The position numbers and the translations under genes were made by a program. A stretch of DNA of 64,000 nucleotides from Selaginella tamariscina (lineage: Eukaryota; Streptophyta; Lycopodiopsida; Selaginellales; Selaginellaceae): assembly GCA_003024785.1 (NCBI GenBank), contig PUQB01000153.1, positions 1 to 64,000 of the forward strand, read 5' to 3'. The notes below the pieces were generated by a model. The model worked only from the letters and a program-made list of their open reading frames with translations. It did no database searches and was not told the origin of the DNA. Within the stretch, counting starts at the first letter, position 1. The number at the start of each line of letters is the position of its first letter. Positions 8,376-64,000 of this stretch are shown piece after piece.

Positions 8376-9489
8376 AGTCAGCTTGGAAAACGTACCAGGA
8401 CTAAGTCACCGTCAGCAAAATCTGGTGGAATTTAATGTCGTGCATTGTAAAAGATTGCTGTGTATTTGAGCTCGACCAAGATGTTCAGCAGACTCTTGCA
8501 CGCAGAAGAGGCAAAACAGCATCCAAATGTCGAGCCCACATCTTTGCATCCTCGGCACGTGGCAGATTCGATGATAACCCCAATTCACTAGGCAACTTAG
8601 GATCATATCCATACAATGCCTTGAATGGAGAGATACCAATCGAACTCTGAATGCCTGTTACATAAGCAAATCTCAAATCGCAAATACCAATCCCAGTCTG
8701 TGATTGAAGTTCACATACTTCGAGATCATACCCTTGAAGGTCCGATTCAATCGCTCCACCAAACCATCAGTTTGTTGATGATACGGAGAGGCAAATGAAT
8801 GTTTTACCCCTAACCTCTCACACAACACTCGGAATACCTCTGCAATGAAAGCGGGGCCATTGTCTGATAACATCCGCTCTGGACAAGAATGCTGCAAAAC
8901 CACATTATCGAACAGAAAAAAAGCTGTTGACATGGCAGTTGCATCCGGAAGAGCACCAACCTCCACCCAACGAGTTAAATAATCAGATACACAATGATGT
9001 ACTGGTTACCTTGAGAAGAACGTGGAAAAGGTCCCATTAAATCCACTGCAATTAACTCAAAAGGGCGAGAGACATTGATGGATTCTAACACCCCCATGGC
9101 CCGAGTCGTAGAGGAATTCCGAGTTTGACAAATGGGACAGCTTTGAATATACCTGATCACATCACCACGCATGCTGGGCCAATAAAAGATCGGAGCTTCT
9201 CCAACACTCGTTGGTGACCAAGATGACCTCCAACAATAGGTGAATCATGATATGCTCGAAGAAGGTGTGGAACATATGTAGAGGGTACAACCAAACGCCA
9301 TCTGTCTCTGGATTTGTCCCAATAAAATACAATAAACCATCCTGAAGTCGAAACTGAGCATGATATTGTCGAAAAGCGGAAGGGATTGCAAACGCGTAAT
9401 TGCCTCGTCCATGGTTCATGTTTTTGAGCATCCTGCCACTGTTCCAAGGATGGTAAGTCGGCATCGAATACCTGAGGGGCTTGTATCAA
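8376..9489 (-). pseudogene. Ty3/gypsy integrase domain, frame-broken
   Basis: Integrase inserts the element's DNA copy into the genome. From the high-coordinate end one sees the zinc-binding HHCC region (GGHLGHQRVLEKLRS; CPICQTRN), then the catalytic core with all three acidic positions: the first D in VDLMGPFPRSSQGN, the second in LSDNGPAFIAEVF and the E in QQTDGLVERLNRT. Next come SPFKALYGYDPKLPSEL and, near 8376-8415, the typical C-terminal DGDLVLVRFPS. The pieces lie in several frames (8673-8966, 8975-9172, 9157-9489, 8485-8676), so the product is not continuous. No chromodomain was seen. Confidence 0.9.
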
Positions 9490-9874
9490 ACCGAACTGCA
9501 GCTACTGCATGAGCAGGCAAAGTGGAATCAAAAGAGGGTGCTCGAGAAAGTGCATCCGCATCCACCATTGTTCGCCCAGGCCTGTGCACCACCTTAAAGT
9601 TATATACCTGGAGACGTAATGCCCATCTGGCTACACGACCCACTAAATTCTTCCGTTTTAATAAGGAAGTGACAGCAGCATGATCACACTCCAAAAGTGT
9701 TTCACTCCCATGTAAGTAGGCATGAAGTCGTTCAAAACCCCAAAGCAAGCATTCTTTTTCAGTAGTGGAATAATTCCTCAGCAGTACTCGACTAATGTAA
9801 GCCACCGGGTGTCGAATTGAAGAATCCACAGCATCAGTTTGCATCAACACCACCAATACCAAATATTGAGGCAT
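9416..9874 (-). pseudogene. Ty3/gypsy RNase H domain
   Basis: This frame reads HPVAYISRVLLRNYSTTEKE, then LLECDHAAVTSLLKRKNLVG and HRPGRTMVDADALSRAP. These are the conserved blocks of the RNase H domain that follows reverse transcriptase in Ty3/gypsy elements. It degrades the RNA strand of the hybrid during replication. The domain is nearly uninterrupted, but its N-terminal connection to reverse transcriptase is in another frame. Confidence 0.9.
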
Positions 9875-19221: not shown

Positions 19222-19392
19222 TCTCCCTCTCTCTCTCCCTGCCTCCATCTCTTCTCTCCATCTCCCTCCCTCCCTCTCTCTCCCTCTCTCCCTCCCTCCC
19301 TCTCTTCTCTCCATCTCTCCCTCCCTCCCTCTTTCTCCTCTCTCTCCCTCTCTCTCCCTCTCTCCTCTCTCTCCCCGTCTCTCTCTCTCGAC
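19222..19392. repeat. ~170-bp pure pyrimidine-rich tract (CTCC/CT)n
   Basis: Almost uninterrupted C/T on the plus strand with CCCTCCCTCTCT repeats. Such tracts can adopt triplex (H-DNA) structure. Overlapping Arg-Glu or Ser-Leu open frames are artefacts. Confidence 0.85.
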
Positions 19393-28937: not shown

Positions 28938-30007
28938 TTATATACGGAGATTATGTACATTTGCTCTGCATCCCCTTAGTTCTTCAAGGGCATCGTTCAG
29001 TGTCATCTGTGGGGAAGCCCTTTGTATGGGAGCTGCCTGATTTAACTCCTTCACGAGAGCACCAATCGCTGCATTCTTAGATGTCCCTTGTGCACACCAC
29101 CTGTCAAACATTCTACTCTATATATATACACATATATACCATACATGCGTGTGTGTGCGTGTGTGTGTGACTTATAAATATGTTTGGGTTACCTTTGGCA
29201 GTTTCCACGCTCATCTTCACTAGCAAACGGACAATTCACCTCTTTCTTGTCTGTCTTCACTTGCAAGGGACTGCTATAAGTTCTTCTAACCCCTGACAAC
29301 TACAACTCTCCATTACTACACAACACACACACACACACACACACACACTAATACGTATGTTTGTCATACAAAGCAAGATACTTACTGGAGTTTTGTTAGA
29401 AGCTTCCTCGAATGCATCCTATATAATCTGGTATGATCTCAGGAAGAATGGATACCCTTCTCTCAACAGCCTGGTCTACACACGCATCGGTGCACACTTC
29501 ACAGAGATACACACTCGACCGAGCTGTGTATCCACTGGAACAAGGTTAAACCTGGTAAACTCCTCCGGTAAACCGGCAAGTGCGTTGGTCACATAGGAGA
29601 GGTCAAAATCCATACAGTAGTTTGCATTCAAACATTGGAAGAGCCTGTAACCTGGTAAGAGCCTGGTTAAACTATACAGCGATCTCAACATAATAACCAG
29701 CATGTTCTTGACTGTATTCCAAGGATTATTACTCGTTCGCGGATCAGCACACTGCATTATCCATCTCTCTATAAGAACGCTTTGGGACTATGCGTTTCTT
29801 GTCAGGCTGCTGTGTAAGGATTACATCTAGCACCACAGGGTCTCTCACTGCCCAGTGAGACTTGTTCTTCACATATTGATCGAAGAGTAACAACCCAAAA
29901 CTTGTAGATTGTTTCTTCTTATGATGGGAATTCGGTACCCTGGCCGCGAGTATTACATTCATACTCTTCGTGAAGAACTCAGACAGTAGATTACGTGGAT
30001 CATCCAT
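28938..30007 (-). CDS. ATG13: Autophagy initiation protein ATG13, compact form
   Basis: ATG13 is the regulatory subunit of the ATG1 kinase complex that starts autophagosome formation. Exon 1 (29386-30007) begins MDDPRNLLSEFFTKSMNVIL and carries the HORMA domain: FTKSMNVILAARVP, DPVVLDVILTQ, then in a shifted frame SQSVLIERWIMQCADPRTS, LRSLYSLTRLLPGYRLFQ and FNLVPVDTQLGRVCISV. After another shift comes SILPEIIPDYIG, matching the plant PQIIPDYIG-type segment. Exon 2 (29193-29292) ends in CPFASEDERGNCQ; exon 3 (28938-29100) has SKNAAIGALVKELNQAAP and LNDALEELRG, the conserved plant ATG13 C-terminus, then TAA. Exon 2-3 phase fits. About 295 residues against about 600 usual: the middle disordered region is nearly gone. 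Two to three one-base frame breaks lie in exon 1. Family call strong; functionality uncertain. Confidence 0.87.
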
Positions 30008-36530: not shown

Positions 36531-37730
36531 ACATACATAAATACACAAACGTAAGCTGTATGGTATGGATATGAATTTGTCAGTCCTAGTATAATAAACT
36601 GCTCCAATAATGTAATTACAGAATCTAATTAAAATTTTCACATTAATAATACATGCTTATGTTAAATTTATTTAACTACTTCAACTATAAACAAGCATAT
36701 ATAGTTATTTCTTAAATATAAATTAAACTCAGTCGTCGTTCACAAGGACCGCTTGTCTTGTAAAAACAGTTGTAAAAAGTTTAAATTTAAGTTTCCTTTT
36801 TACATATTGACCATTGTAATTTGTAACTAATTAAAAACAATATAAAAACCATTAAAAGAAGCCCCGTTTAAAAAGATGAAAACTTAAATGAAGAATTGTT
36901 AATCCACTAATTAAGCTCATCAACTTCCAACAAAGACATAAATACACACTCATATGGCATACATTCATCTTAACCTCCTTAAGTTGTTAGCATTCAAGTA
37001 CACAGTGTCTCTAACAAATATTCACAACACGCGCACACACACAACACACAAATGTATGTGTGTGTTTGTGTGTATATGTCACTTTGCATATTATATAAAA
37101 CATTGAAAGTAACCATTAAAAGCTCTTTTTAAAAAAAAATAATTAAAATAATAATATTTTAATACACTAATTAAACTCCTCCAAGCAGGTATATTCCCAG
37201 GTTCTAATTAACATGCACACACACATATATCCATGTGCATATACATAAATAATGCACATTACATAAAACAGACATGTAGACTCAAGGATGACAGGGAAAT
37301 AAATAATGTACACACATTTAAACTCAATAAAGACATGGTTACACCCATTTTAGCTAACACACACAGAGTATTTCAACAGAGAATATTTAAATTATTTAAT
37401 ATAATATGTATTTATTTGTATATATACATTCACTTATAATTATGGTAAATAATTACCAAAGAGACATGCAATTGCATTAATCTCTTAATATTTGTCAATA
37501 TATTTCAAAGTTATATATATATGATTCATATGTAAGATAACCTGGTTCAGATCAATATTATTTAATATTTAATATCATTATATTTCTTAAATGTAAATTA
37601 ACCAGTGTACAGTACTAAGACGGCAACTTCTCTAGTTATAAATTTTTTAAAAGTTTAATTACGAGGAAACACACCAAAATATATAAATAAAAAAACCATT
37701 TATAAAGAAAAAAGCATACTTAAAACACAA

Positions 37731-38640: not shown

Positions 38641-38739
38641 TTTTGAGATTTTAAACAATAGTTTAATTACAGAATAAATTTATAAATATTAATTTTTAAA
38701 TGATAAATAGATTTTTATAATTTTGCATAGTACTGCGTG

Positions 38740-38770
<31 letters not shown>

Positions 38771-38819
38771 ACGGATTGGAGCCTAAATCCAACGCCTTAG
38801 ACCACTCGGCCAAACTGTC
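38740..38819 (-). tRNA. tRNA-Leu(UAG)
   Basis: 80-base gene on the minus strand including the discriminator base. Acceptor strands GACAGTT/AGCTGTC pair with one G-U. Box A GGCCGAGTGG and box B GGTTCAAATCC are present. The anticodon stem TTGGA/TCCAA encloses TTTAGGC with anticodon TAG, and a long variable arm is present. No intron. No run of four T follows on the minus strand within about 40 bases, so termination is unclear. Confidence 0.9.
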
Positions 38820-45330: not shown

Positions 45331-45954
45331 AATATACTTCACAGTGTCACACACACTATGTGTGTGTGTGTGTGTGTGTTGTGTGTTGTGTGAAATATAC
45401 AACGTATTTGTGTTTGTGTACTTAAAATGATATTATAGTATATTATACACACACACACATGTAAATATATAATATGCATATGTGTCATAAAAAATATATA
45501 TTAGATATATGCATATATGAATAGGTTGTGTGTGCGTCTTGGTGTGGACATTTAGATAGATTTATACACATAAATAAATAACTCTTAGTTAATAAATGCA
45601 TATTTAAAAAACTAAGTGTTACAACTAAAACATTAAAAAATTATTATTCTAATAATGGAATACTCATATACTGTCTAATTATATTATGTTATAAAATATA
45701 TGAAAAAAAACTGTTGATTTATTAAAATACAGAATTATACCATGAAATCGTTAACCATGCATACATCTATTCTTAGTTCAAACTTTAAAAAACTAAATAT
45801 ATATTTATTACCATGATTTTAACATTAAATTAATGCATTATGATATATAATACTTATAATATTTTCATTAATTAAAAAATGCACCTAATATAAATATTTA
45901 TACTCGTGGTGTACACACGCACACGCACAATATGCATACGTATACGTCCGACAT

Positions 45955-45992
45955 GCGTAAGGGTGTGGGTTCAAAATCCCATAGCTGTAGCA
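45955..45992 (+). pseudogene. tRNA-Leu 3'-half remnant
   Basis: AAGGGTGTGGGTTCAAAATCCCATAGCTGT: variable arm, T-arm and acceptor end only. Counterpart at 47170-47203. Confidence 0.7.
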
Positions 45993-46179
45993 CTTTTCTT
46001 TTACACACGTACACAGACATATTTACATTAACACACACAATATATGTTAATGTAAACACACCTAATACACACATTTATACTCAACCAAAGTGTGGTCTAC
46101 ACACAAAATGTTCCGTCTGTGTAAGATTAGCACTGCTTATTATATCCTGTAATTGCAGTAAAACTTACTATATCGTAAT

Positions 46180-46227
46180 GACAGTTTGGCCGAGTGGTCT
46201 AAGCGTTGGATTTAGGTTCCAATCCGG

Positions 46228-46258
<31 letters not shown>
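46180..46258 (+). tRNA. tRNA-Leu(UAG), one base short in the D-loop
   Basis: 79 bases. Identical in plan to the 38.7-kb gene; anticodon loop TTTAGGT with TAG. The D-arm reads TCTAAGCG where the others read TCTAAGGCG, so one G is lost. No T4 run downstream. Its function is doubtful. Confidence 0.8.
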
Positions 46259-46259
<1 letters not shown>

Positions 46260-46358
46260 TATTAATATATGTGTGTGAGATGTATCATGTGTAACGTCCC
46301 TGGTTGATTGCATCCCTGCACTTATGAATAAAAAGCGAATATTCCGATATGTTATAAA

Positions 46359-47107: not shown

Positions 47108-47169
47108 ACTATGATATGACTATAGCACACACGCACACACACAATATGCATACGTATACGTCTGACATG

Positions 47170-47203
47170 CTTAAGGGCGTGGGTTCGAATTCCAGAGCTG
47201 TAG
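47170..47203 (+). pseudogene. tRNA-Leu 3'-half remnant
   Basis: TTAAGGGCGTGGGTTCGAATTCCAGAGCTGT: T-arm and acceptor end only. Confidence 0.7.
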
Positions 47204-47355
47204 CACTTTCTTTACACACGCTAATACACGTGTTTACATTAACACACACAATATATACACACCTAATACACACATTTATACTCAACCACTGTCTGTGTAA
47301 GATTAACATTGCTTATTAAATCCTGTAATTGCAGTAAAACGTACCATATTGTAAT

Positions 47356-47404
47356 GACAGCTTGGCCGAGTGGTCTAAGGCGTTGGATTTAGGCTCCAAT
47401 CCGG

Positions 47405-47435
<31 letters not shown>
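47356..47435 (+). tRNA. tRNA-Leu(UAG)
   Basis: 80 bases. GACAGCT/AGCTGTC acceptor pairs fully; TTGGA TTTAGGC TCCAA anticodon arm with TAG; long variable arm; box A and box B intact. No T4 run in the next 60 bases. Confidence 0.92.
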
Positions 47436-49129
47436 GTATTATTAAGTGTGTGCAACAACTATCTATGTCCCTGTTGCTATATTTCTTATAATGAAATTAA
47501 AATTTCTCAAAAATTTAAATTAATTTTTCATATGTATATTTAATTCAATAAGAAAAACACATCAAAAAGTTTAAAATATTAAAAAGAAACAATTAAAAAA
47601 AAAACTTTGTTTTTAAAAGAAGCATACTTGATAATTATTACTCAGCATTTATTGTACAAGGTATAATATTGGCGAGTTTTGTAAATCTTATCCAACTCTA
47701 CTTATATATACATAAGGTATAATAAACTCTGCATAAATGTAATTAACAAAATATAATTAAATTTTCACATGCTTATTTTAAATTTTGTTTAACTACTTAT
47801 CAATTTTCACCTATATGATATTTGATGTCTATAACAGCGTAAAACAATAATAAATTTTAATTCAAAACAAATTATATATTCATGAACTGGTCAGTTTTTG
47901 TGTTTGTGTGTGTGTGCATATCTGTATATGTAGGAACACATACGCCCCTGAGAGAGCAGCTATGAATAACACAAGCGACATACAGTGTGCATATGTATGA
48001 ACCTATAACAAACTGTAAACACAGCAGAGGAACACATATACACACACGTATATAAACTTTGAGACTATCTATCTATTTATATTTATTTATTTCTTATATA
48101 TAAATAAACTTGGTCGATTGCAAACAGCAGCGCCTATCTTGTTAAAACATTTAAAAAGTTTAAATTAGCTTTTCTTAAGTAGAAACCAATAAAAGAAGCT
48201 CCTTTTTAATCCACTAATTAACCTCATCACTACACGTATAATCTACATGGATTCGTCAGTATTGTGTGTGTGCGTGAACACACACATGCACACATTCACT
48301 ATATATAGCATACATTCATCTTAAACTCCTCAAGTTGGTAGCATTCATCAAAAGTTTTCTTACACACTGACGTGACCAACAGGTATGCACAAAGCTTGCA
48401 TGTTAATTAGAACCTGGGAATATGCCTCTCTGGAGTGGATTAAAAAAATTATATGTTTTTAAGTATTTTTCTTTTGTTTTGAACGGAGCTTCTTTTAATG
48501 GTTACTTTCAATGTTTTAAAAAACATATAATGTTGAAGTTAGTTTACTTAAACTAACTTTGAGAGAGGCCTTGTACTTGATTTAAGCTTCGTCTGTTCAT
48601 ATAATAAGTATAGTCTCATACAGATATATATCCATGTGCATATACATAAAAAATGTACATTAAATAATATAGACATTTAAACTTAACAACCATTTAAGCT
48701 ACGCGACTATTAAACTCTATGAGTAACACACACAATATTTAAAGAGAGTGCACATATACGTAAATAATGTATCTATTTATATATACATTCACTTATAATC
48801 TGACGTGCAATTGCATTAATCTCTTAGGTTTTTGTCAATGTCTTTCAAATCTATATATAATATGATTCATTTGTAAAATGACATGAACATTCTTAATTCT
48901 AATCTTATATATATAAGATTAATATTAATTAATAATTAATATCATTATATTTCTTAAATGTAATTACGCCAAGAACACAGATTGTCTCCTTATCAATTTA
49001 AAAAGTTTAAATTCTCAAAATAAAAGAAACCATTAAAAGCTCTTTTTAAAAAAGAGTCATACTTAAAAAACAATAATTGTTAATCCGTTAGTTAAACTTG
49101 TCAATTATAAATCAGATAACTAAGTGTAC

Positions 49130-49470: not shown

Positions 49471-50882
49471 ATGTATGTATTTATGTATGTATTGTGTGTG
49501 TGTGTGCGTGCATATGATATATAATATATTAATGATAATTAATATTTCGTATTGTTACATTTATTCATTATGTACATATGCTGCTATTTATTTCAACATT
49601 AAAAAAATAAAAGTTTTGTAAACATTAACTGACAGTATATCATCAATACACTTTGGATATATATTATTTAATATATGTATATTATAGATAAATATTACAC
49701 GTATATTTTCATATAAATATAGAGGGCGATTCTTAGATTTTGTCATATTTTTCATAGTTAGACACACGTATGTATGTGATAAGCATGCAAAATAGCCTGA
49801 CATTCTTAAGTTCATCAATATAAACAAAATTATATTAATCAGTATTTAAACGTTCAAAGAGAAAGTTATTAAAATGTCTTTAGAATTTTAAATATTTATA
49901 AATTGTTATTATAATTTGATAATTATGAAATGTTCTTGTACAGTTCACAATACTCTTTTCTTTTGTATTATTTTACTACTTTTTAATTAGTTTTGGATTA
50001 AATTAAAACCATAACATTAGCTTTGGATTAAATTAAAACTTAAGGAAAGAGAATAAATTTAAATTAATAACTATGAAATGAATTTACTGTTTGTGAGAGT
50101 TATATCTGTCTCCATAAATTAATACAAGGTTGTTATGAAAGATAAAATTATTTATGATTATGCATAATTAGTATTTGATATTAAAATATAAACACGTTTT
50201 TCTTAATATATAAAAAGATAAATTTTTATTGTCTAGAAAAGCTAAAGAGTATATTTTGTTGATTGGATACCTTAAGTTACGGCATTTTAATCTCACAGTT
50301 TGTATGATACGTGTACTCATGACTGCAATATGCGTTAAGTAAAATATTTTAGCAATCATATATCCTAACACATTAAAACTAATGTGTTAATACATTCATT
50401 GTGTGTGTGTGTGTGTGAGCCACACACACATAAGTAACAGATTGTTCTGTACTTATTTTTAGATTCAATGTATGCGTTTATACATGTTAATACGTATATG
50501 TATGTATAAAAGTGTATGTATGTATTTCTGCGACTGTATGTACACAAGCATGTGAGCGTGTGTGCGTGTGCATGCATCTGTTGTATGTATGTGCATATAC
50601 AAGTGCCGATACATGCATGTTATAAATAATTGGAAACTACTATTTAATCTTGTGTATGTGTGTGTATATACACGTGTGATAAATGTGTGTGTGTGTTAGA
50701 TGTATATTACATAACTTCCTAATTTGAGAGGAAGGGACTCTTTTGGTACTTGTTTTGGTCTCTGCCTCCATATACACACGCACACGCGGCACACGCGCTT
50801 GCACACCTAACAATTATAGATGTATACATACATAGATATATAATTTTATACACATGATATACTAGCAAAACAGGCTGTAAAC

Positions 50883-50931
50883 GACAGCTTGGCCGAGTGG
50901 TCTAAGGCGTTGGATTTAGGCTCCAATCCGC

Positions 50932-50962
<31 letters not shown>
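50883..50962 (+). tRNA. tRNA-Leu(UAG)
   Basis: 80 bases, same structure as the 47.4-kb gene; variable arm CCGCAAGGGCG. Identical over its length to 57662-57741. Only a TTT run follows. A CAA-rich leader (AGCAAAACAGG) lies just upstream, as is common for plant tRNA genes. Confidence 0.93.
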
Positions 50963-51639
50963 CCATTTCCTGTGGTGTGTTCACATCTTTGCACATTATT
51001 GACGTACATACTATCATGTGTGCTGTATTATCATAAATTTAAATAGTTTATAATTAAAATAATAAGAGAGAGTATTTATATTCTCTCTCTCTCTAACACA
51101 CACATTCCAGCATAAGAACTTCCACAAAAAACCAAGTAATATAACTAGACTATTTTAATGTTTGAATGAGCAATTCATGGATGGCTTTACATGTATTGTA
51201 CAAACTTGCATTGTAGTCAATGGATATTTATGAAACTAATAAGAATTTATATTATGATGCAAATTTAGGAATTCATAATAAAGGCTATATGAATATATAT
51301 TGACAAAAATAATAATAACATATATTAACAACAATTATGCAGATAAAACTTAAAAAGAGTATAGGGACTTAGAGCTACAGAACATTTAGATAGATAAACA
51401 CACACATGATACGTACACAGGTATATACACGATGCGTGTACATAAGTTAGTGATTTAAATGAACGTTTAAAAACCTGTTTACGGCTGTGCATTGTGCATG
51501 TTGGACCGTTGGATGAATACCATAGTATGACTGAAATGTTTCTAATGTATAGCTTTTATGCTTTTATATTTAATGAAATATGTACAGTCTCAGCAAACAC
51601 ACATGGAAAGGCCACTTAACCACTAATCAAGCTTAATCC

Positions 51640-51795
51640 TTAAGCAGTTTTATCACTTCCATAATCGAAAGAAGATGCCTGGAGTTTCCTCACAAGTTGG
51701 TAGCATTCATCACCCACTGCCTGACCGGCAGGTATATTCTCGAACCTCATAGATCCATAGAATATCCCTTCCTCACGGGTTTTGTCAAACTTCAC
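51640..51795 (-). pseudogene. Conserved terminal exon 'IPAGQ', intact frame
   Basis: After a CACAG acceptor the minus strand reads VKFDKTREEGIFYGSMRFEN, IPAGQAVGDECYQLVRKLQA, SSFDYGSDKTA and TAA: 51 residues without interruption. The copy at 58757-58921 is frame-broken, and several shorter relics lie at 36-49 kb. The clean frame and splice acceptor mark it as a real last exon. No upstream exon is adjacent in this copy. Protein not recognised. Confidence 0.65.
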
Positions 51796-51839
51796 CTGTG
51801 AAACCATAAAACACACTTATATATGTAACATCATGTATA

Positions 51840-51985
51840 GATAACATTCTCTCTCTCTCTTCTCACACACACACACACACACACACACATCTAGAAACAG
51901 TGCATCTCTCTCTCTCACTTTAACACACACACATCTACATCAACTTGTCATATATGTCTCTCACTCTCTCTCTTTATATTTAAAA
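51840..51985. repeat. (CT)n(CA)n microsatellites
   Basis: Repeated CTCTCTCT...CACACACA tracts followed by ACATCTAGAAACAGTGCATC; the paralogue at 58.97-59.17 kb has more repeats of the same motif. Confidence 0.8.
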
Positions 51986-52194
51986 AGAATTAAAGTAAGC
52001 AATGTTAGCAAATGCCATAAATTTAAAATAACTATATTATAATTTAATATATAGGTTTAATTAATTTTAATTTGAAGTAAAATCACATGAATTTTAAGTT
52101 TTATATATATTTAAAAAAATAAATGTGCTTGAAGTCTCCTTCCACAATCCTGTATAAGAAATATATACATACGTGTACGTGCGCGTGTGTGAGA

Positions 52195-52400
52195 GTATTC
52201 ATTTAGAAGTATCCGTGTATGTATACATGCCTATCCCTCTTATATGTGGCTACAGGCGTATTTATCTACATAATTCTCCATACATATAGATATATCTGTA
52301 CATGTAGAATCGTATACAGATGTAATATACGTAAATTATGTTACATATAGCCAAAATATAGTATGCCTGTACTTTATGCCTTATGACTTCACACATATAA
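52195..52400 (+). repeat. Dispersed repeat copy in block C
   Basis: Same family as 46685-46990, with an internal deletion joining ATGCCTAT to CCCTCTTATATGTGGC. Confidence 0.65.
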
Positions 52401-53279
52401 TAATAAATGAATCTTATTTATAGAAGTACCTACATATATATGTATGTGTATGTTGCATATGCTTATTTATGACCTTATTTTGTTCATGTCAATGGTGCGT
52501 CTATACACATATGTCTTATATATATAATATTAAGTAGTGGTTTCCAAATATAGTATATGCACATACATACAACAGTGCATGCAAACACGCACACACGCTC
52601 ATATGCTAAGACATATAATCGCAGAAAATACATACATACACTTTCTATACATACATATACGTATTGACATGTATGAACGCATCTAAATATAAATACATAA
52701 ACAATCTGTAATCCTATATAATAACTTATATATCTTATATATTTATAACATATTAAGTATTGCTTCTCCTCGTTTAAAACTGTGTTTACTTATTGTGCAT
52801 TTAACAAAAAATATAGTTATGCGATTTGTTTAATATAAATTAAAAACATGATACTTCGTGTTACAATTGGTATATTATTCATATGAAGAAATATAAGAAA
52901 CATTGATTGCAATGTTGAGTTTGAAATATAAGATGTTCATTGTTTGATACTTCAAACATGATCCTTCGTGTTACAATATATATACACTAAGTGTTTTGTA
53001 TTCATTTTGCTTATTTAGTAAGTCATTTCTACATAATATTTAATTTGAACGTTTTGTTGCAATTTAAAGTTGATATTGAATATTTAAAATGCTATACATA
53101 CGGTTTCAAAGACACTTAAGTATAATAGTAAAAGATGCACACATACGTACTTTTATATCCATACACACACAAACTAAAATCTCATCTATATACATGCAAA
53201 AGGGCATTTCATGTCTGCAGACGTACGTATGTAATGAATACTCCATGATAAACACGTGTCAGTTGCTGGTGTAAGATAT

Positions 53280-53442
53280 TATCCCACATTCATTAGTTTG
53301 GCTTCCAGAGTATAGATTATAAAGTGCCGTGTGAAACTTATTAATGAGTCCGTCGGCTTCAAGGTGAGAGTCAACCTGTACCATATTGCCTGAGGGCTGA
53401 TGTGGACATGTTTGATAATTGGGGTGTACCACGTCAGGCGGG
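53280..53442 (-). pseudogene. Exon 'PPDVVHPN', copy 1
   Basis: The minus strand reads IPPDVVHPNYQTCPHQPSGN, MVQVDSHLEADGLINKFHTA, LYNLYSGSQTNECGI without a stop. Homologous copies are at 60440-60582 (minus) and 4526-4700 (plus). Conservation of the peptide across diverged copies suggests a real exon. Not recognised. Confidence 0.6.
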
Positions 53443-53492
53443 ATAACCGAGCAGCGTCTGCCTTATTTGCACCGGTGAAGGGACCGCGGACT

Positions 53493-53688
53493 CTTTTGTG
53501 TTATTAACTTAATGTAATTTTAAATAAATATTAAAATGATATAAGAACAGCTTAATGCATTTTAGTAAGTATTTATCATAAATATTAAAACTTTTGTGTT
53601 ATTAACTTAATGTAATTTTAAATAAATATTAAAATGATATAAGAACAGCTTAATGCATTTTAGTAAGTATTTATCATAAATATTAAAA
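53493..53688 (+). repeat. 98-bp perfect tandem duplication
   Basis: CTTTTGTGTTATTAACTTAA...TTTATCATAAATATTAAAA occurs at 53493-53590 and 53591-53688 with no difference seen. Very recent, or an assembly artefact. Confidence 0.93.
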
Positions 53689-53740
53689 CGATTATATATT
53701 TACTTAAGGCGGTGTTATCAATGAGAAAACACTGGTTTAG

Positions 53741-53757
53741 GGTTTAGGGTTTCATTA
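53741..53757. repeat. Short interstitial telomere-type motif
   Basis: GGTTTAGGGTTTAGGGTTTC, plant TTTAGGG units; absent from the paralogous position at 60.59 kb. Confidence 0.7.
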
Positions 53758-53765
53758 AAATAATA

Positions 53766-53845
53766 CTAAACTCGAGGATTAAGAACTTTAAACCTGTGAT
53801 TGCTGCAATGTTTCAGTTCTTCCAACGAGAACAGTTCTGTATATA
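53766..53845 (-). pseudogene. Exon relic 'LEELKHCSNHRF'
   Basis: The minus strand reads SLEELKHCSNHRFKVLNPRV and stop; homologous to 21.7, 25.4 and 60.6 kb. An alternative frame gives the WKN...LEF reading. Confidence 0.5.
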
Positions 53846-54752
53846 TACATTTTGATGTACTTATATATACGTAGGCATGTATATATACGCGGATACTCTC
53901 TCTCACACACATACACACGCACACGCACACATGTATGTATATTGTATACAGGATTGTATACAAATACAACGCGGATGAGATATATATGCTCGAGGAAGAA
54001 ATCACGTGAAAAAGCATATTCACAGTAATATTCGTATGTGACCGAGAGAAATTCTCTTTAGTGAATCAGAAATTTGAATGTTCGCGCGAAAAATCTCTGA
54101 CGTATGCCTTAAAATTTAGAAATTATAATTTACGATGTATATTTTAAAACATATTATGTATATATATCTATCAAATAAATTAATTGAACATATAGTTATT
54201 AAAAATTTATGGCATTTATTAGCATTTGCTTATTTCATTTCTTTCAATTTAAGATATATATGTCTTTAGTTTAAAAACAAATCGAATCAATTGATTAAAA
54301 TATAATTTATTCTAATTTCTAATACAAATAAAATGATAACAAAATATTTTAATAATTTTTAAATAAAGGGATTGATTAAACATTATTGAAAATATCATAT
54401 AAAAATATTTTTTCTTCTTTTATTACTTTTTAAATTTATATTTATAATAATTAAAAAAGTGGTATGATTTTTTGAAGGTAAAAAATGTGATTATAAAATT
54501 TCAGTAATTAAACTAGTCACTGTTGTTAACTCACACATGGACATGCGTATATAAAATGAATACGATTTCTAATTAACACGTAATTATTTAATATTATCTT
54601 GTGTGTGCGTGTGTGCGTGTGTGCGTATTCTATATATGTTTACTGTGCTTCATCAGACTAATATTATCTGTGCGTGCGTGCGTCGTATATATATATATTA
54701 CTGTGCTGTGTGTATGTCGGATGACCTTACGGACTCGATATATTGTAAGTGC

Positions 54753-54787
54753 TGACAACTGTGGACTTGAACCCACGCCCTTGCGGT
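54753..54787 (-). pseudogene. tRNA-Leu 3'-half remnant
   Basis: The minus strand reads CCGCAAGGGCGTGGGTTCAAG and ends CCACAGTTGTC: variable arm, T-arm and acceptor end. Confidence 0.75.
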
Positions 54788-54789
54788 CA

Positions 54790-56600
54790 TTAATATATGT
54801 ATAGTTTGTAAATATGTATACTAATTATATATAGAATATTTCACCCTCACACAAGCACGCACATCCAATTAAATAGAAAATGCATATGAGAAACCTCAGA
54901 TGGTAGTTTTAATTATGTAAATTTTAAGGTAATAAAAGGCAATTGCTAGAAATCGTATCTAATACATTAAATATAAATTAAATAAAATGAATTTAAACTA
55001 GAAACTTTAGTTTTAATAAAGTTGGACTACATTCTTTTGTCAAAAAGGATTATCAAAACCGTTATTGTCTCGTATTTTTTGTTTTAAGCACTCCCCACAT
55101 TCAAATTTTCATTAGTATATTTCTTGAAAATTCGAAAGTTCGGGTTTAAAGAATGTACTTTTTTTAATCGAAAATAAAGAAATTTAATTTTCTTTTTTTC
55201 TTAAGGACCTTTGAGAATATATGTATATACATAAGTATAATCATATTTATGCATATAGATATATATATGATGACTTATTTTTTATATAGTCTCTTTTTCA
55301 TACATGTTAATATATAATTTTTGATTTATATAACAACGTTTCCTACGGTACTATAAATATATAATCGTTTTATTAAATACAAATTAAAATGTATTAAGCA
55401 ACTGTGAGCAAACAAACGTAGCAACGTTAATTATCACTTCATAACCTAAACTCTAGAAACTAAATTAATGAATGTGGGATAAATATTGCACCAGCAATTG
55501 ACACGCATAATAAAGAAATATTCAAAACACGCAAACATATACATATATGTTTGCAGAAATGCAAATGACCTTATGTATGTGTGAGATTTTAGTTTGTGTG
55601 TGTGTGAAGATATAAAAGTACATACATGTGCACTATTATAGTTAAGCGTATTTAAAATCTATAATATAATAAGCATACTTTAAGTATTAAATAAAATTAT
55701 AAAAAAAGAACAATTTAGAAAGGCTTATTAAATAAACTTATCAAATAATGATGTTGTTAAGTTTTAACTGCATTAAATAAATAATAAAGTTCTTATGCAT
55801 AACAACATTTATGTTAAATAAATTAGTCATTAATTAATAAATAAAAACAATATAATTATTATACGAGAAAGGTCTCCTAACTGTATTAAAATGAAATTAT
55901 AGTTTAGGTATGGTTTATATTATTAATCCATTTTATTTAAATAAATACAATTGTTATGTTAAATAGAAAAGTTAAATTGTTCAAACTCAATTTATAATAT
56001 ATAATTCTAGTAAATAACAAACTTGATTATGTGTCATATTTCCATTCTTACTATAAATATATTTATATATTGGTGTTATATATTGGTACTATTTCTGAGA
56101 AATGAATATGTAAATCACATAAATATGATTATGCTTATGTATATATATTAATGAGTGTGTGGGTGTCTATATATATATATATATATGCACAATTGAATGC
56201 TTGCATGTATGTTTGTTAAGTTGAGTTAGATTTATCAAAAACATATATTTAACAAGTTATAATATTATAAACACATAGTCAAACTAAATAAATATTTGTA
56301 TACATACGTGTAAAACATACGCATATACACAACATGTCGTAAATATACATTCAAATAATCGTACCTTCACAATCTATATGTAACTCGGCAGTTCGAACAA
56401 CTTATGAGAAAGACTGTACAAAAATCAAATATAAAAGCAAAATAGGTATTATTGTATAATGTCAAATCTTATAAAATTGTAACGCTTTAGACAGATAAAG
56501 AGAACCTACTGTAATTAATATTTTTATGTATATACATGTACATATTATATTTAATGGATGTGTGTGTGAGAGAGATTTAACCTTGTTGTGAACTTATTCC
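54790..56600. other. AT-rich part of copy 1 (block A)
   Basis: No gene. 56091-56125 is the empty-site counterpart of the TRIM insertion at 61827. Confidence 0.6.
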
Positions 56601-57661
56601 ATTGTATATACAAAGCGTTCTATTGTGTAAACATTTTAGTCATTCAACTTAAAAAGAGAACGTTATTAAAATGTCTTAGAATTTCAAATATTTATAAAAT
56701 TGTTTATTATAATTTGATAATTATAAAAAGTTCTTCTTGTACAGTTCAGAAACTCTTTTCTTTTGTATTATTTAATTCAAGTTTATTCTCGTCCCTTAAT
56801 CAAAAACTAATTTAAAGACTTTTAAAAAGTAGTAAACAAATATGAAATGAATTTACTGTTTGTGAGAGTTATATTTGTCTACATAACTTAGTACAAGCTT
56901 GTGTTGAAAGATAAAATTATTTACGATCATGTATAATTAGTATTTGATATTAAAATATAAACGTGTTTTCGTAATATATATAAAGGATAATCATTTTTTA
57001 TTGTCTAGAAAAGCTAAAGAGTATATTTTGTTGATTGGATACCTTAAGTTTTAAACGTGCGGTTTATTGGGGAGCATCTTACAGTTTTTGAGACTGCACA
57101 TATGCGTAAAATAGCACAAGTAAAATATTTTAGCAATCGTTATCCTAATACATTAAAACTGATGTGTTAAATGCATACACACACACACACATATATATAA
57201 ATGCACGTGTATGTGTGTGTGTATAAGCCACACACACACATATATTTCTATACTTATATTTAGATTCAATGTATGCGTTTTACATGTCAATACGTATATG
57301 TATGTATTTCTGCAACTGTACACAAGCATGTAAGCGTGTGTGCGTGTGCATGCATCTGTTGTATGTATGTGTATATACGAGTGCCGATACATGATATGTT
57401 ATAAATATTTGGAAACTACTATTTAATATTGTGTACGTGTGTGTATATACGGGTGTGATAAGTGTGTGTGTGTGTTATATGTACATTACATAACTTCCCA
57501 ATTTGAGAAGAAAGGAATCTTTTGGTACTTGTTGTGGTCTCTGCTCATAAAACTTGTCCATATATACACGCACACGCGGCACACGCTCGTGCACACCTAA
57601 CAATTATAGATTTATACATACATAGATATATAATGATATATTAGCAAAACATGCTGTAAAC

Positions 57662-57710
57662 GACAGCTTGGCCGAGTGGTCTAAGGCGTTGGATTTAGGC
57701 TCCAATCCGC

Positions 57711-57741
<31 letters not shown>
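57662..57741 (+). tRNA. tRNA-Leu(UAG)
   Basis: 80 bases, sequence-identical to 50883-50962, with the same leader (GCAAAACATGCTGTAAAC). No T4 run in the next 40 bases. Confidence 0.93.
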
Positions 57742-57784
57742 TCAGTTCCTGTTGTGTGTTCACATGTTGACACACACTTATGCA

Positions 57785-58165
57785 TATATATATAGAGAGA
57801 GAACAGAGTATTTGCATTCTCTCTCTCTCTCTCACACACACGCGCATCCTATAGAGAGAGAGCAGAGTATTTGCATTCTCTCTCTCTCTCACACACACTT
57901 ATGCATATATTATAGAGAGAGAACAGAGTATTTGCATTCTCTCTCTCACACACACACATCCTAGCATAAGAAACTTCCACAAAAAACGCAGAGTATTTGC
58001 ATTCTCTCTCTCTCTCTCTCAACACACAACCATCCTAGCATAAGAAACTTCCACAAAAAACGAAGTAATATAACTAGACTACATTAATGTTTGAATGAGC
58101 AATTCATGGATGGCATATATATAGAGAGAGCAGAGTATTTGCATTCTCTCTCTCACACACACACA
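57785..58165. repeat. Hairpin-forming minisatellite, five to six units
   Basis: Units of GAGAGAGCAGAGTATTTGCATTCTCTCTCTC, each a GA-arm and CT-arm inverted repeat around ACAGAGTATTTGCAT, followed by (CA)n. Units near 57795, 57853, 57913, 57985 and 58120. The last two are joined to a duplicated CATCCTAGCATAAGAAACTT...GAGCAATTCATGGATGGC segment. The paralogue at 51065-51095 has one unit. Confidence 0.8.
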
Positions 58166-58756
58166 TCCTAGCATAAGAAACTTCCACAAAAAACGAAGTA
58201 ATATAACTAGGCTACATTAATGTTTGAATGAGCAATTCATGGATGGCTTTACATGTATTGTACAAACTAGCTAAGAGAGTCGACAACTTATTAGGTGCTC
58301 TTATATGAGATTTAACTGAAGAGACGTTAATTATAACATATTTAACTGACAGGAGAAACCCAAGAACTGCATTGTAGTCAATGGATATGTATGAAACTAA
58401 TAAGAATTTATATTATGGTGCAAATCTAGGAATTTATAATAAAGGCTATCTGAATATATATTGACAAAAACAATAATAACATATAGTTATGCGGATAAAA
58501 CTTAAAAAAGAGTATAGGGACATTTAGATAGATAACACACACACATCAGGTATATATACGATGCGTGTACATAAGTTACTGACGTTTAAAAACCTGTTTA
58601 CGGCTGTGCATTGTGCATGTTGGACCGTTGGATGAGTACCATAGTATGACTGAAATGTTTCTAATGTATAGCTTTTATGCTTTTATATTTGATGAAATAT
58701 GCAAACGCATGTTGTAAACACATGGAAAGGCCACTTAACCACTAATCGAGCTTAAT

Positions 58757-58921
58757 CCTTAGTTTTATCACTTCCATAATCGAAAGAAGATGCCTGGAGT
58801 TTCCTCACAAGTTGGTAGCATTCATCAAGAAGATCGCCTGACCGGCAGGTATATTCCCGGATCTTAGTGATTCATAGAATATCCCTTCCTCACGGGCTTT
58901 GTCAATCTCATCTAACTTCAC
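58757..58921 (-). pseudogene. Terminal exon 'IPAGQ', copy 2, frame-broken
   Basis: Reads VKLDEIDKAREEGIFYESLR and SGNIPAGQAI, then shifts frame before CYQLVRKLQ. It has three codons (DEI) that 51640-51795 lacks, so neither copy is simply ancestral. Confidence 0.65.
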
Positions 58922-60439
58922 CTGTGAAACTATAAAATGCACACTTAACATCATGTACAGTTAACATATAATTTCTCTCTCTCTCTCTTCACACACACAC
59001 ATCTAGAAACAGTGCATCTTCTCTCTCTCACTCACTCACTCACACACACACATAGACACATCTGCATCAGCTTGTCATATATGTTGTATATACAAATACA
59101 TAATAAGACTTAGAAACAGTGCATCTCTCTCTCTCACACACACACATCTAATGTCTCTCACTCTCTCTCTTTATATTTAAAAAAAAGAAATAAAATAAGC
59201 AATGTTAGTAAATGTCATAAATTTCAAAATAACTATATTATAATTTAATATATAGGTTTAATTAATTTTAATTTAAAGTAAAATCACATGAATTTTAAGT
59301 TTTTATATATTTAAAAAAAAAAACGTGCTTGAAGTCTCCTTCCACAATCCTGTATAATACATGCCTATGTATATAAATGCTCAAAATGTATATACACAGA
59401 CATCTCCCTCTTATGTGTGGCCTACAGGCGTGTATTTATCTATATAATTCTCCATACATATAGAATATATCTGTACATGTAGAATCATATACAGATGTAA
59501 TATATACGTAAATTATGTTATATATGGCCCAAATATGTACTTTATGCCTTATAAATAAATCTTATATATAGAAGTATCTGTGTATACTTTATAACATATA
59601 TATGTATGTGTATGTTGCCATGTGCTTATTTATGGCCTTATTTTGTTCATGTCAATGGTGCCACATATATCTTATATATGTATATTAAGTAGTGGTTTCC
59701 AAATATCATGTATCGGCACTAGTATATGCACATACATACAACAGTGCATGCACACACAAGACATACAATCGCAGAAAATACATACATACATATACGTATT
59801 GACATGTATGAACGCATATATTGAATCTAAATATAAATACAAAAACAATCTGTAATCCTCTTTCTGTACATGTGTGCTAATAATGTATATAATAACTAAC
59901 ATATTAAGTATTGCTTCCTCCTCCTTGATTAATTGCATTTAACACAAATATAGTTATGCGATTTGTTTAATATAATAATTTGAAAACATGATACTTCGTG
60001 TTTACAATTGGTATATTATTCATCTAAAGAAATATAAAAAACATTAATTGCAGTGTTGAGTTTGAAATGTAAAATGTTTATTGTTTGATACTTAAAACAT
60101 CATCCTTCATATTTACAATATACATACTAAGTGTTTGGTATTTATTTTGCTTATTTAGTAAGTCGTTTTTAATATTAAATTTTGACCTTTTGTTGCAATT
60201 TAAAGTTGATATTGAGTATTTAAAATGCTATACATACGGGTTTCAAAGACACTTAAGTATAATAGTAAAAGATGCACACATACGTACTTTTATATCCCAT
60301 ACACACACACAAACTAAAATCTCATCTATATACATTTGCATGTCCGCAGACATACGTATATAATGCGTGATCCCTTGTAAACACGTGTTAGTTGCTGGTG
60401 TAGCATATTTATCCCACATTCATTAGTTTGGCTTCCAGA

Positions 60440-60660
60440 CTATAGGTTATAAAGTGCCATGTTCAAATTCTTTAACGAGTCTGTCCCTTCAAGGTGAGAG
60501 TCAACATGTATCATATTGCTTGAAGGCTGATGTGGACATGATTGATAATTGGGGTGTACCACGTCAGGCGGGGTAACAATACTAAACTCGAGGATTAAGA
60601 ACTTTAAACCTGTGATTGCTGCAATGTTCCAGTTCTTCCAACGAGAACATTCTGTATATA
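60440..60660 (-). pseudogene. Fused exon relics, copy 2
   Basis: One minus-strand frame runs WKNWNIAAITGLKFLILEFS, IVTPPDVVHPNYQSCPHQ, SSNMIHVDSHLEG. The two exon relics that lie ~320 bp apart in copy 1 (53.44 and 53.77 kb) are here directly joined, so DNA was lost in copy 2 or gained in copy 1. Confidence 0.55.
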
Positions 60661-60780
60661 TACACATGTATGTATAATATTATATACAAGATACAACGCG
60701 GATTGAATGTTCGCGCGAAAAATCTCTGACGTATGCCTTAAAATTTAGAAATTATATTTTTACGATGTACATTTTAAAAC

Positions 60781-60815
<35 letters not shown>

Positions 60816-60947
60816 AATAAAATTAATTGAACATATAGTTATTAAAACATTTATGGCATTCACTAACATTGCTTATTTCATTTCTTTCATTTAAGATTTT
60901 TATAAATTATATTTTTAATCAATTTGATTTCGATTTGTTTTTAAACT

Positions 60948-60978
<31 letters not shown>

Positions 60979-61067
60979 TATATATAATGTTATCCTATTT
61001 CATTCTAATTTCTAATACAAAAATGATAACAAATTTTTAAATAAACTGATTGATTAAACATTATTGT

Positions 61068-61103
61068 AAATCCAACGCCTTACACTACTCGGCCAAACTG
61101 TTC
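61068..61103 (-). pseudogene. tRNA-Leu 5'-half remnant
   Basis: The minus strand reads ACAGTTTGGCCGAGTAGTGTAAGGCGTTGGATTT: D-arm and start of the anticodon arm only. Confidence 0.75.
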
Positions 61104-61826
61104 GTTACAGCTACACCACTTTAAGGTTTAATTAAAATGTATTAAAGCAATGGTGAAAACGCCCTTTTGCATGTGTGAAATTTTAGTTTGTGTGTGTGTT
61201 AAGATATAAAAGTACATACATGTGCACTATTATATTTAAGCGTATTTAAAATCCATATGTATATATATAATATAATAAGCAATTAAATCAAAAAATAAAA
61301 TTAAGAAAGGCTTACTAATAAATTTAGTATATAGATTATAAACATGAAATATTATGTTTTAAATTATCAAATAATGATATTGTTAAATTTCAAACTGTAG
61401 ATAACAACACAATTAATTTCTTCAGATGAAGTATAGTATACCCATTATATCCATGACAACAATACACTAATTAGAAACATATGTCTTTTAATGTATCATT
61501 TCTTTTAAATTATCACATTAAATAAATAATGAAGTTCTTATGCATAACAATATTTAGTCATCAATTAGTGAATCAAAACAATATATAACTTATTATTTAA
61601 CTGAAAGGTCTCCTTAAATGTACTAAAATGAAATTAGTAATCTATTTCATTTAGATAAATATAATTGTTATATTAAACAGCAAAAGTTAAAATGTTTTTA
61701 TAATATATAATTTTAATAAATAGCAAACTTGATTATGTGTCATATTTCCATTTCTGTTATAAATATATTTATATATTGATGTATATATTGGTACTATTTA
61801 TGAAAGATGAAATATGTAAATCACAT

Positions 61827-61987
61827 TGTAAGATCCACGTGTACGGCTGCATGTGCACATATTATTATTTGCATAGTGAATTTTGATATCCGTCGGATTG
61901 GATTCAATTTGGACCATTCGCTATTGTATATAAATTAGGGTTTCTAAAGTAATGAATATACACATTTCTATATTTTGAGCTATCACA
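61827..61987 (+). repeat. TRIM 5' LTR
   Basis: Begins TG, ends CA; contains TGTATATAAATTAGGG, a possible TATA region. Confidence 0.9.
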
Positions 61988-62113
61988 TTGGTGAAGGTGA
62001 CAAGAACCCTTCCGTGACAGATTCACCAGTGCCTCTTCCTGATGTTCCTCCATATCCGGCCCGTCTAAAAGAGAACCCTAACCAACTTACACCCTTATAA
62101 GAGGAGAGGATGA

Positions 62114-62275
62114 TGTAAGATCCACATGTATTGGCTGCATGTGCACATATTATTATTAGCATAGTGAATTTTGATAGTCGTCGGATTGAATTCAATATGG
62201 ATCACTCACTCTTGTATATAAGTTAGGATTTTTGAACTAATGGATATACACATGTCTATATTCCGAGCTCTCACA
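62114..62275 (+). repeat. TRIM 3' LTR
   Basis: Diverged from the 5' LTR at roughly one base in eight by eye, so the insertion is old. Confidence 0.9.
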
Positions 62276-62739
62276 ACATAAATATGATTATACTTATATA
62301 TATATATATATATATATATGCAGAATTGTATGCATGCATGTATGTCCGTTAATTTTATCTGCAGCTCACATATCTCATCATTAATGTCGAGTTAGATTTA
62401 TCAACAAACATATCTCTAACAAGTTACAATATTATAAACACACATAATCAAATTAAATAAATATTTGTATACATACGTGTGTAAAACATACACACACACA
62501 TACACAGCATGTGTGTAAATATACATTCAAATAATTACCTTAACAGTCTATATGTAACTCGACAAATCCAACAACTTACGAGAGAAAACCTGCACAAAAA
62601 TATAAAATATAAAAGCAAACATAAATATTATTATATAATGTCAAATCTTATAAATTGGAACGCTTTAGACAGACAGAGAGCCTACTGTAATTAAATATTT
62701 TGATGTACAAATATACATGTACATATTATGGTAATTTAT

Positions 62740-63480
62740 AAAATTGTTATTATAATTTGATAATTATGAAATGTTCTTTTTGTACAGTTCAGAAAAATCT
62801 TTTCTTTTGTATTATTTAATTCAAATTTATTTTCGTCCTTTAGGTTTTGACTCAATCCATAATTTTATGGTTTTTAAAAAGTAGTAAACAACTATGCAAT
62901 GAGTTGAAAGTTAGATATGTCTCCATAACTTAGTACAAGCTTGTTGTGAAAGATAAAATTATTATGATATGTATAATTAGTATTTGATATTAAAATATAA
63001 ACACGTGTTTTCTTAATGTATAAAAAAGATAAATTTTATTGTCTAGAAAAGCTGAAGAGTATTATTTGTTGATTAGATACCTTAAGTTACGGCATTTTTA
63101 AACGTGCACAAAAGAAAAAGGTATATCGAGAGCATCTCACAGTTTTTGAGCGTTTGTATGATACACGTGTACTCAGGACTGCACATATGCGTTAGCACAA
63201 GTAAAATATTTTAGCAATCGTCATCCTAATACATTAAAACTAACGTGTTAATACATACATACATATATATATATATATAATGTGTGTGTGTGTGTAAGTC
63301 ACACATACATATATACAGACTGTTCTGTACTTTTAGATTCAATGTATGCGTTTATACATGTCAATATGTATATGTATGCATAGAAAGTGTATGTATGTAT
63401 TTCTGCGACTGTATGTACACAAGCATGTGAGCGTGTGTGCGTGTGCATGCATCTGTTGTATGTATGTGCATATACTAGTG
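62740..63480 (+). repeat. Segmental duplication, copy 3 (block B only)
   Basis: AATTTATAAAATTGTTATTA through GCATGCATCTGTTGTATGTA follows 49.86-50.60 and 56.68-57.37 kb. The expected tRNA-Leu gene does not follow. Confidence 0.8.
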
Positions 63481-64000
63481 GCGATACAGGAAACCACTAC
63501 TTAATATTATACATATATAAGACATATGTGTAGCACCATTGACATGAACAAAATAAGGTCATAAATAAGCATATGGCAACATACACATACATATATATGT
63601 AGGTACTTCTATATATAAGATTCATTTATATATTATATGTTAAGGCATAAAGTACATGCATACCTATATTTTGGCTTATTTTATGTATATATTACATCTG
63701 TATATGATTCTACATGTACAGATATATTCTATATGACACTTAAAGGAGAATTATATAGATAAATACACGCCTGTAGGCCACATATAAGAGGGAGATGTCT
63801 GTGTATATACATTTTGAGCATTTATATACATAGGCATGTATACATACACGGATACTTCTAAACACACGCACGTAGACGTATGTATATAATTGTTATACAG
63901 GATTGTGGAAGAAGACTTCAAGCACTTTCTTTTTTTTAAATATATAAAAACTTAAAATTCATGTGATTTTACTTCAAATTAAAATTAATTAAACATATAT
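63481..64000 (-). repeat. Inverted block C at the right edge
   Basis: Reverse complement of 59.25-59.70 kb (AAACCACTACTTAATAT to TTAATTAATTTTAATTTGAA). Shows a B-to-inverted-C junction near 63.49 kb. Confidence 0.8.

Follow-up and report, generated by a model that had tools for sequence, protein, structure and literature searches.

How does a nuclear transfer RNA (tRNA) gene come to sit in a row of long, head-to-tail DNA segments that have otherwise diverged, and what has kept the tRNA alike while its surroundings changed? The question is raised by a repeated 6–7 kb unit carrying a tRNA-Leu(UAG) gene in the lycophyte Selaginella tamariscina, near the end of positions 1–64,000 of contig PUQB01000153.1 (here C453). 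This whole 64,000-nucleotide stretch is referred to as the window, and the genome searched for related DNA comprised 1391 contigs (300.7 Mb). That genome has 26 matches to the light-harvesting protein family PF00504, each exon being counted separately, and one of them reads, in our judgement, as a land-plant-like Lhcb split across two frames, which marks the source as a green plant. The best explanation, to which we would give a probability of roughly 0.8, is that a nuclear tRNA-Leu(UAG) cluster underwent a local tandem segmental duplication long ago and now evolves by birth and death.

The window was compared with itself by BLASTN, and 100 first-order Markov shuffles served as the null. Copy 1 of the unit (49856–56548, plus strand) consists of block B, the tRNA-Leu, block C with an exon relic, blocks D and E, an inverted tRNA relic and block A. 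Copy 2 (56653–62729, plus strand) is collinear with it. Nine ordered matches connect the two copies: 49856–50995 with 56653–57774 (79.0%), 51065–51209 with 58127–58271 (90.5%), 51207–51957 with 58368–59084 (81.0%), 51892–53447 with 59111–60577 (80.0%), 53759–53849 with 60575–60664 (96.7%), 54074–54261 with 60703–60903 (86.7%), 55560–55740 with 61154–61326 (81.8%), 55771–56120 with 61516–61826 (76.0%) and 56168–56548 with 62301–62729 (79.0%). Identity thus ranges from 76 to 97% over all matched blocks and is only 76–81% in the five blocks longer than 300 bp, so that the units are far from uniform within this genome. In all, 5013 of the 6081 bases of copy 2 were matched by copy 1, with a top match of 1448 bits, while the shuffled sequences never exceeded 73 bases and 40.1 bits. 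A reading made earlier from the letters of the sequence only had proposed a tandem array of 6–7 kb segments with the blocks in the same order in both copies, and these matches bear it out. The shuffles also ruled out microsatellites as the sole origin of the self-matches.

The array is present on a second contig, C467. The parts of C467 that were covered align with C453 30.8–67.2 kb at 84–97% identity, with gaps (BLAST), and contain three units in the same order as on C453. Collinear, head-to-tail, tRNA-bearing units are found three times on C453, where the third is partly inverted, and three times on C467, where one has a broken tRNA. Substitutions and indels were counted in the ten best alignments between the two contigs. 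Seven long near-allelic alignments, lying within C453 30.8–65.7 kb, show 0.5–3.3% substitutions and 12–34 indels per kb, mostly of a single base, compared to 8.9% substitutions between unit 1 of C453 and unit 3 of C467. Because the near-allelic matches are so much closer than this pair of different units, and because units match their counterparts on the other contig (unit 3 only downstream of the tRNA), the duplication predates the split between C453 and C467. We read C467 as the other haplotype.

The tRNA genes themselves are a mixture of intact and degenerate copies. In copies 1 and 2, ARAGORN and Rfam identified tRNA-Leu(UAG) at 50883–50962 (plus strand, intact) and at 57662–57741 (plus strand), and the two are the same over 80 bp, as had been noticed from the sequence. 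Intact genes are present in three of the six units on the two contigs, namely units 1 and 2 of C453 and unit 2 of C467, and these three are identical over 80 bp. In unit 1 of C467 the tRNA is broken by an 11-bp deletion that took the anticodon and by a second deletion of 6 bp; in unit 3 of C453 it has one substitution and a cut 3′ end; and in unit 3 of C467 it carries single-base indels and a substitution. Two further contigs, C103 and C186, hold related units, one and two respectively in the parts covered, and these have no upright tRNA: in the C103 unit and the similar one on C186, about 16 bases from the start of the gene are all that is left, and 20 kb of sequence showed no upright tRNA belonging to the second C186 unit. 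A second, inverted tRNA-Leu survives as a relic in six of the seven units that have blocks D and E (units 1 and 2 of C453, all three units of C467 and one on C186), and none was found in unit 3 of C453. By sequence match, the relic comprises the 3′ half at 54753–54786 (minus strand) in copy 1 and the 5′ half at 61067–61101 (minus strand) in copy 2; on C467 it lies at 29793–29865 (82.5% over its full length), 36621–36657 and 19278–19328, and on C186 at 29290–29345. The suggestion of one tRNA-Leu per copy describes the upright gene of copies 1 and 2 (that of copy 3 is inverted and lies past the window); in addition there are the inverted relics, the C103 and C186 units that lack the gene, and a cluster that extends beyond the array.

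What has preserved the tRNA was assessed by comparing 80 tRNA columns with 404 columns of the 400 bp upstream across the six unit copies. Only 2 of the 80 tRNA columns vary, compared to 67 of the 404 upstream columns (Fisher p = 3e-4), and this difference supports past purifying selection on the tRNA over much of its history. The sequence-only reading had left the choice between selection and gene conversion. Conversion is not required for units 1 and 2, since each is closer to its C467 counterpart than to the other: at −700 to −400 relative to the tRNA, unit 1 is 100% and unit 2 is 95% identical to its counterpart, compared to 74–76% between units 1 and 2. Conversion may have acted on the upstream side of unit 3, which is closer to its C467 counterpart only on the downstream side of the tRNA (94–96% compared to 32–50%).

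The other supposedly conserved part of the unit fared differently. Each copy had been thought to carry one conserved terminal exon. Alignment places it on the minus strand at 51640–51800 in copy 1, with a frame open to the stop, and at 58761–58926 in copy 2, with the frame broken. The frame is broken in five of six copies (units 2 and 3 of C453 and units 1–3 of C467), leaving only unit 1 of C453 open, which rules out a conserved protein exon. Some of these breaks may be assembly errors; several of the deletions span many bases. Judged by its frames, the exon is a decaying relic. All nine of its genome matches fall on the four array contigs (three on C453, three on C467, one on C103 and two on C186), and no parent gene was found among them. 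The copy 1 peptide matched no Pfam family and gave no match in the PDB, and the joined copy 2 peptide matched only DUF2408 in Pfam, at 15.2 bits, below the cut-off of 25.

It had also been proposed that the unit spreads as a tRNA-containing amplicon. A genome search with block B returned 29 matches, from which all counts are lower bounds. Among the matches listed, long ones (at least 346 bp in one piece) occur at least three times on C453, at least four times on C467 and at least once each on C103 and C186, and on no other contig; the shorter matches reach about 190 bp on these four contigs and about 130 bp elsewhere. Block D, which in copy 1 forms with E the segment 51892–54261 (plus strand), behaves differently. 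It gave at least 44 matches with 40 of 55 candidates scored, six of them long and located on C453 and C467. Parts of it also occur at other places in the window and on further contigs, including C1337, C1229 and C766, each of which also has tRNA-Leu matches. Because fragments of D are found on these further contigs and, among the matches listed, long B on four only, block D contains a dispersed repeat and the whole unit is local. The confinement of long block B to four contigs, together with the existence of units without a tRNA, ruled out the whole unit as a spreading amplicon.

The most distinctive feature of the locus is an inversion on one of the two near-allelic contigs. A third copy had been expected to begin at 62.74 kb, and it does begin close by, at 62734 (62734–64000 within the window, by BLASTN, 76.5% identical to copy 1 and 76.4% to copy 2). 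It does not continue as a simple copy: block B is upright at 62734–63491, and from about 63314 the sequence runs into inverted block D (63314–64000, reaching 64135 past the window). In the C453 DNA beyond the window, inverted block C with the exon occupies 64093–64885 (exon relic 64256–64366), and it is followed by a tRNA-Leu at 65795–65872 on the minus strand (ARAGORN call at 65792, minus strand), inverted B to 66241, upright D at 66120–67034 and E at 67171–67620. The order is therefore B, inverted D, inverted C, tRNA on the minus strand, inverted B, D and E. An inverted repeat detected by BLASTN is present in each C453 unit. Its left arm in copy 1 (50437–50600, plus strand) is 83% identical to 52709–52553, the right arm (52553–52709, minus strand), and in copy 2 the left arm (57245–57429, plus strand) is 76% identical to 59845–59682, the right arm (59682–59845, minus strand). 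Sequence comparison places the left junction of copy 3 at 63314–63491, with B-type sequence on its left and reversed D-type sequence on its right; both junctions switch between B-type and D-type inside this repeat and are reciprocal. Because unit 3 of C467 and units 1 and 2 of both contigs are upright, the inverted form is probably the derived state.

Collectively, these results suggest the following history. Besides a tRNA-Leu in upright orientation and a second one inverted, the ancestral 6–7 kb unit would have held the broken terminal exon of a gene and fragments of a dispersed repeat. Unequal crossing-over is the most likely means by which it was copied head to tail into three or more units. 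The copying preceded the split of the two near-allelic contigs, since units 1 and 2 match their counterparts all along and unit 3 matches its own on the downstream side of its tRNA. Thereafter the tRNA has changed more slowly than its surroundings, which we read as selection, while individual tRNA copies were damaged or lost. On C453, recombination between the inverted repeats of unit 3, presumably homologous, would have flipped the exon–tRNA segment and left the reciprocal junctions seen there. Several observations weigh against this account. The contrast between tRNA and flank is modest in single pairs of units (p = 0.003–0.095 in the seven pairs tested), and the 50 bp directly upstream of the tRNA are also well kept, at 94–100%. 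In the 400 bp upstream, unit 3 of C453 is no closer to its counterpart (87–90%) than other pairs are to each other (86–95%), and strict unit-by-unit descent predicts otherwise. Furthermore, C467 could be a recent segmental duplication instead of an allele, and the 1-base gaps, the commonest class of indel in all ten long alignments, may be residual assembly errors that exaggerate the frame breaks and some of the tRNA damage.

The upstream similarity of unit 3 is part of what gene conversion among units would explain, namely that exchange has maintained the similarity of the tRNA genes and of a few hundred bases before them. The identity of the three intact tRNAs is consistent with it, as is the profile of identity between units, which is 86–96% across the 400 bp upstream and 42–76% further out, as in a conversion tract (unit 3 of C453 is not comparable past its junction). 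However, the tRNA of C467 unit 1 retains its two deletions beside intact neighbors, and the tRNAs of unit 3 retain changes of their own. The array tRNA also has a 100% identical match in a tRNA at 355 kb on C467, where similarity extends only a short way into the flanks; selection or common descent can account for that identity as well. We consider conversion unlikely as the explanation, though somewhat less so because of the upstream pattern of unit 3.

Quite improbable is the idea that the unit or its tRNA core is a mobile, tRNA-headed element. It draws on the tRNA-Leu copies at 340 and 355 kb on C467 and on C40, C760, C280 and C471, which have TGTAAAC or TGTAAAT in common on the upstream side and some of which are also alike downstream in a flank resembling TTCCTGTTGTG, and on the D fragments of C1337, C1229 and C766 with their tRNA-Leu matches. 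The shared upstream motif may mark a common tRNA-Leu lineage, and GTAA stands just upstream of some control tRNAs of other isotypes as well, so that it may be general. The narrow distribution of long block B and the tRNA-less units argue in the same direction; several further copies are themselves clustered (five matches on C1337 and three on C40), as local duplication would give; and no target-site duplications were noticed by eye, a systematic search not having been made. An assembly artefact, affecting either the inversion in copy 3 or the array as a whole, has very little probability, even though the locus is rich in repeats and C453 and C467 resemble unmerged haplotypes. Three units stand on each of two contigs, and the inversion junctions are reciprocal and fall within an inverted repeat; in units 1 and 2 its arms share just 76–83% identity, so that an assembler is unlikely to have mistaken one for the other. 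An old local duplication followed by birth and death of the tRNA copies is the reading that we retain.

Whether the cluster genes have the usual termination signal was compared with control tRNAs, which were 40 high-scoring ones of 62 genome matches. A run of four T (T4) within 30 nt is found after one of the six ARAGORN genes on C453 and two of the ten in the C467 parts covered, compared to 22 of the 40 controls, a contrast that is suggestive only. Dispersed tRNA-Leu copies with ordinary gene features exist: on C526 and C505, TTTT follows 1 base after the 80-bp tRNA, and it comes later on C659 (at 13), C435 (at 31) and C969 (at 56). A missing RNA polymerase III (Pol III) terminator was rejected as proof of dead genes, as 18 of the 40 controls also have no T4 within 30 nt, and the TGTAAAC-flanked copies on C760 and C280 have T4 soon after the match. 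Minimum-energy folds predicted by RNAfold for the two tRNA types differ from one another and carry no weight here.

Arrays of tRNA genes are already known elsewhere, and the present locus is a small, old and decaying example of the kind. The tRNA-Ser/tRNA-Tyr (SYY) cluster on chromosome 1 of Arabidopsis thaliana is described as having grown by tandem duplication, with pseudogenes and with dispersed copies apart from it (PMC12308677). As far as that description goes, the two loci are alike in consisting of nuclear plant tRNA genes with tandem growth, pseudogenes and separate dispersed copies. In contrast, the units of SYY, which combine one Ser with two Tyr genes, are far more numerous, whereas the present locus has few 6–7 kb units of one isotype, a decayed inverted second tRNA and a unit that is partly inverted on one contig. 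The human tRNA variable number tandem repeat at 1q23.3 also has units of about 7 kb (7.3 kb) whose tRNA genes are preserved amid otherwise diverging sequence, in that case between human and mouse; it is GC-rich, with 9–43 units per allele, several tRNA genes and bound CTCF, compared to the few diverged, AT-rich units seen here (PMC4041453). Entamoeba arrays are likewise described as tandem units bearing tRNA genes, which in some species are separated by microsatellite-like repeats. In E. histolytica, however, arrays hold nearly all of the tRNA genes and most copies of an array unit show uniform sequence (PMC2652664), while the units here have diverged by about 20% and are decaying, and the tRNA also has dispersed copies. 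The titles and abstract openings listed on lycophyte tRNA arrays mention no nuclear array, and those on tRNA arrays with inversions concern mostly organelles; absence from print is not claimed in either case. The locus thus offers a plant tRNA cluster in birth and death, with an old duplication, a conserved tRNA, decaying neighbors and an inversion that differs between near-allelic contigs. It may be useful for studies of how clustered tRNA genes rearrange, and it leaves general views unchanged. As a long shot, by analogy, the exon–tRNA segment might be a switch that flips repeatedly through the intra-unit inverted repeats, so that individuals would differ in the strand of the clustered tRNA-Leu, and the cluster genes, most of them without a nearby Pol III terminator, might form a separate tRNA-Leu class with a regulated or boundary role, like the regulated expression reported for SYY in Arabidopsis.

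The tRNA-Leu cluster is wider than the array, with further ARAGORN genes in the window at 38739–38819 (minus strand), at 46179–46259 (plus strand; 95% identical to the array tRNA, with a lower Rfam score of 54.9 bits) and at 47355–47436 (plus strand), the last of which belongs, by self-match, to a duplicated version of the 46 kb sequence. This smaller tandem duplication (45913–46275 and 47127–47452) holds the genes at 46179 and 47355, and relics of a tRNA 3′ part lie on the same strand at 45953–45988 and 47173–47201, about 150–190 bp upstream of the two genes. At the other end of the window, a tRNA-Leu relic (82%) at 803–880 is followed by a D-like fragment at 1285–1455; this pair, together with the D-like sequences on C1337, C1229 and C766 with their tRNA-Leu matches, hints at an older association of tRNA and D. 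A genome-wide search with the tRNA profile RF00005 gave 15756 loose candidates, of which 63 were scored, and tRNA-like copies may be abundant in this genome.

Other repeats were observed in and near the array. Two others of the ten best alignments between C453 and C467, those of C453 8.3–10.8 kb (1.8% substitutions) and 10.9–12.9 kb (9.1%), adjoin on C467 the match to 30.8 kb and probably represent distinct retroelement copies. Retrotransposon integrase and RNase H domains lie in separate open frames at 8673–9874 (minus strand), and DNA 87–95% like this element, probably another copy of it, is found at C467 63.3–67.8 kb beside the counterpart of C453 30.8 kb. The stretch at C453 23.0–24.5 kb is 99% identical to C467, 94% to C335 and 88% to C994 and C623. 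Copy 1 has a tandem direct repeat at 53493–53707 (a 118-bp match, 95%, offset about 98 bp), situated between its blocks D and E, that was not found in copy 2. In copy 2, a piece of about 160 bp is duplicated at 61827–62275 (86%) and occurs also near C453 70.2–70.5 kb and at C467 11.7–12.0 kb. The plant-type telomere motif TTTAGGG is present as two units at 53736–53749, within the array.

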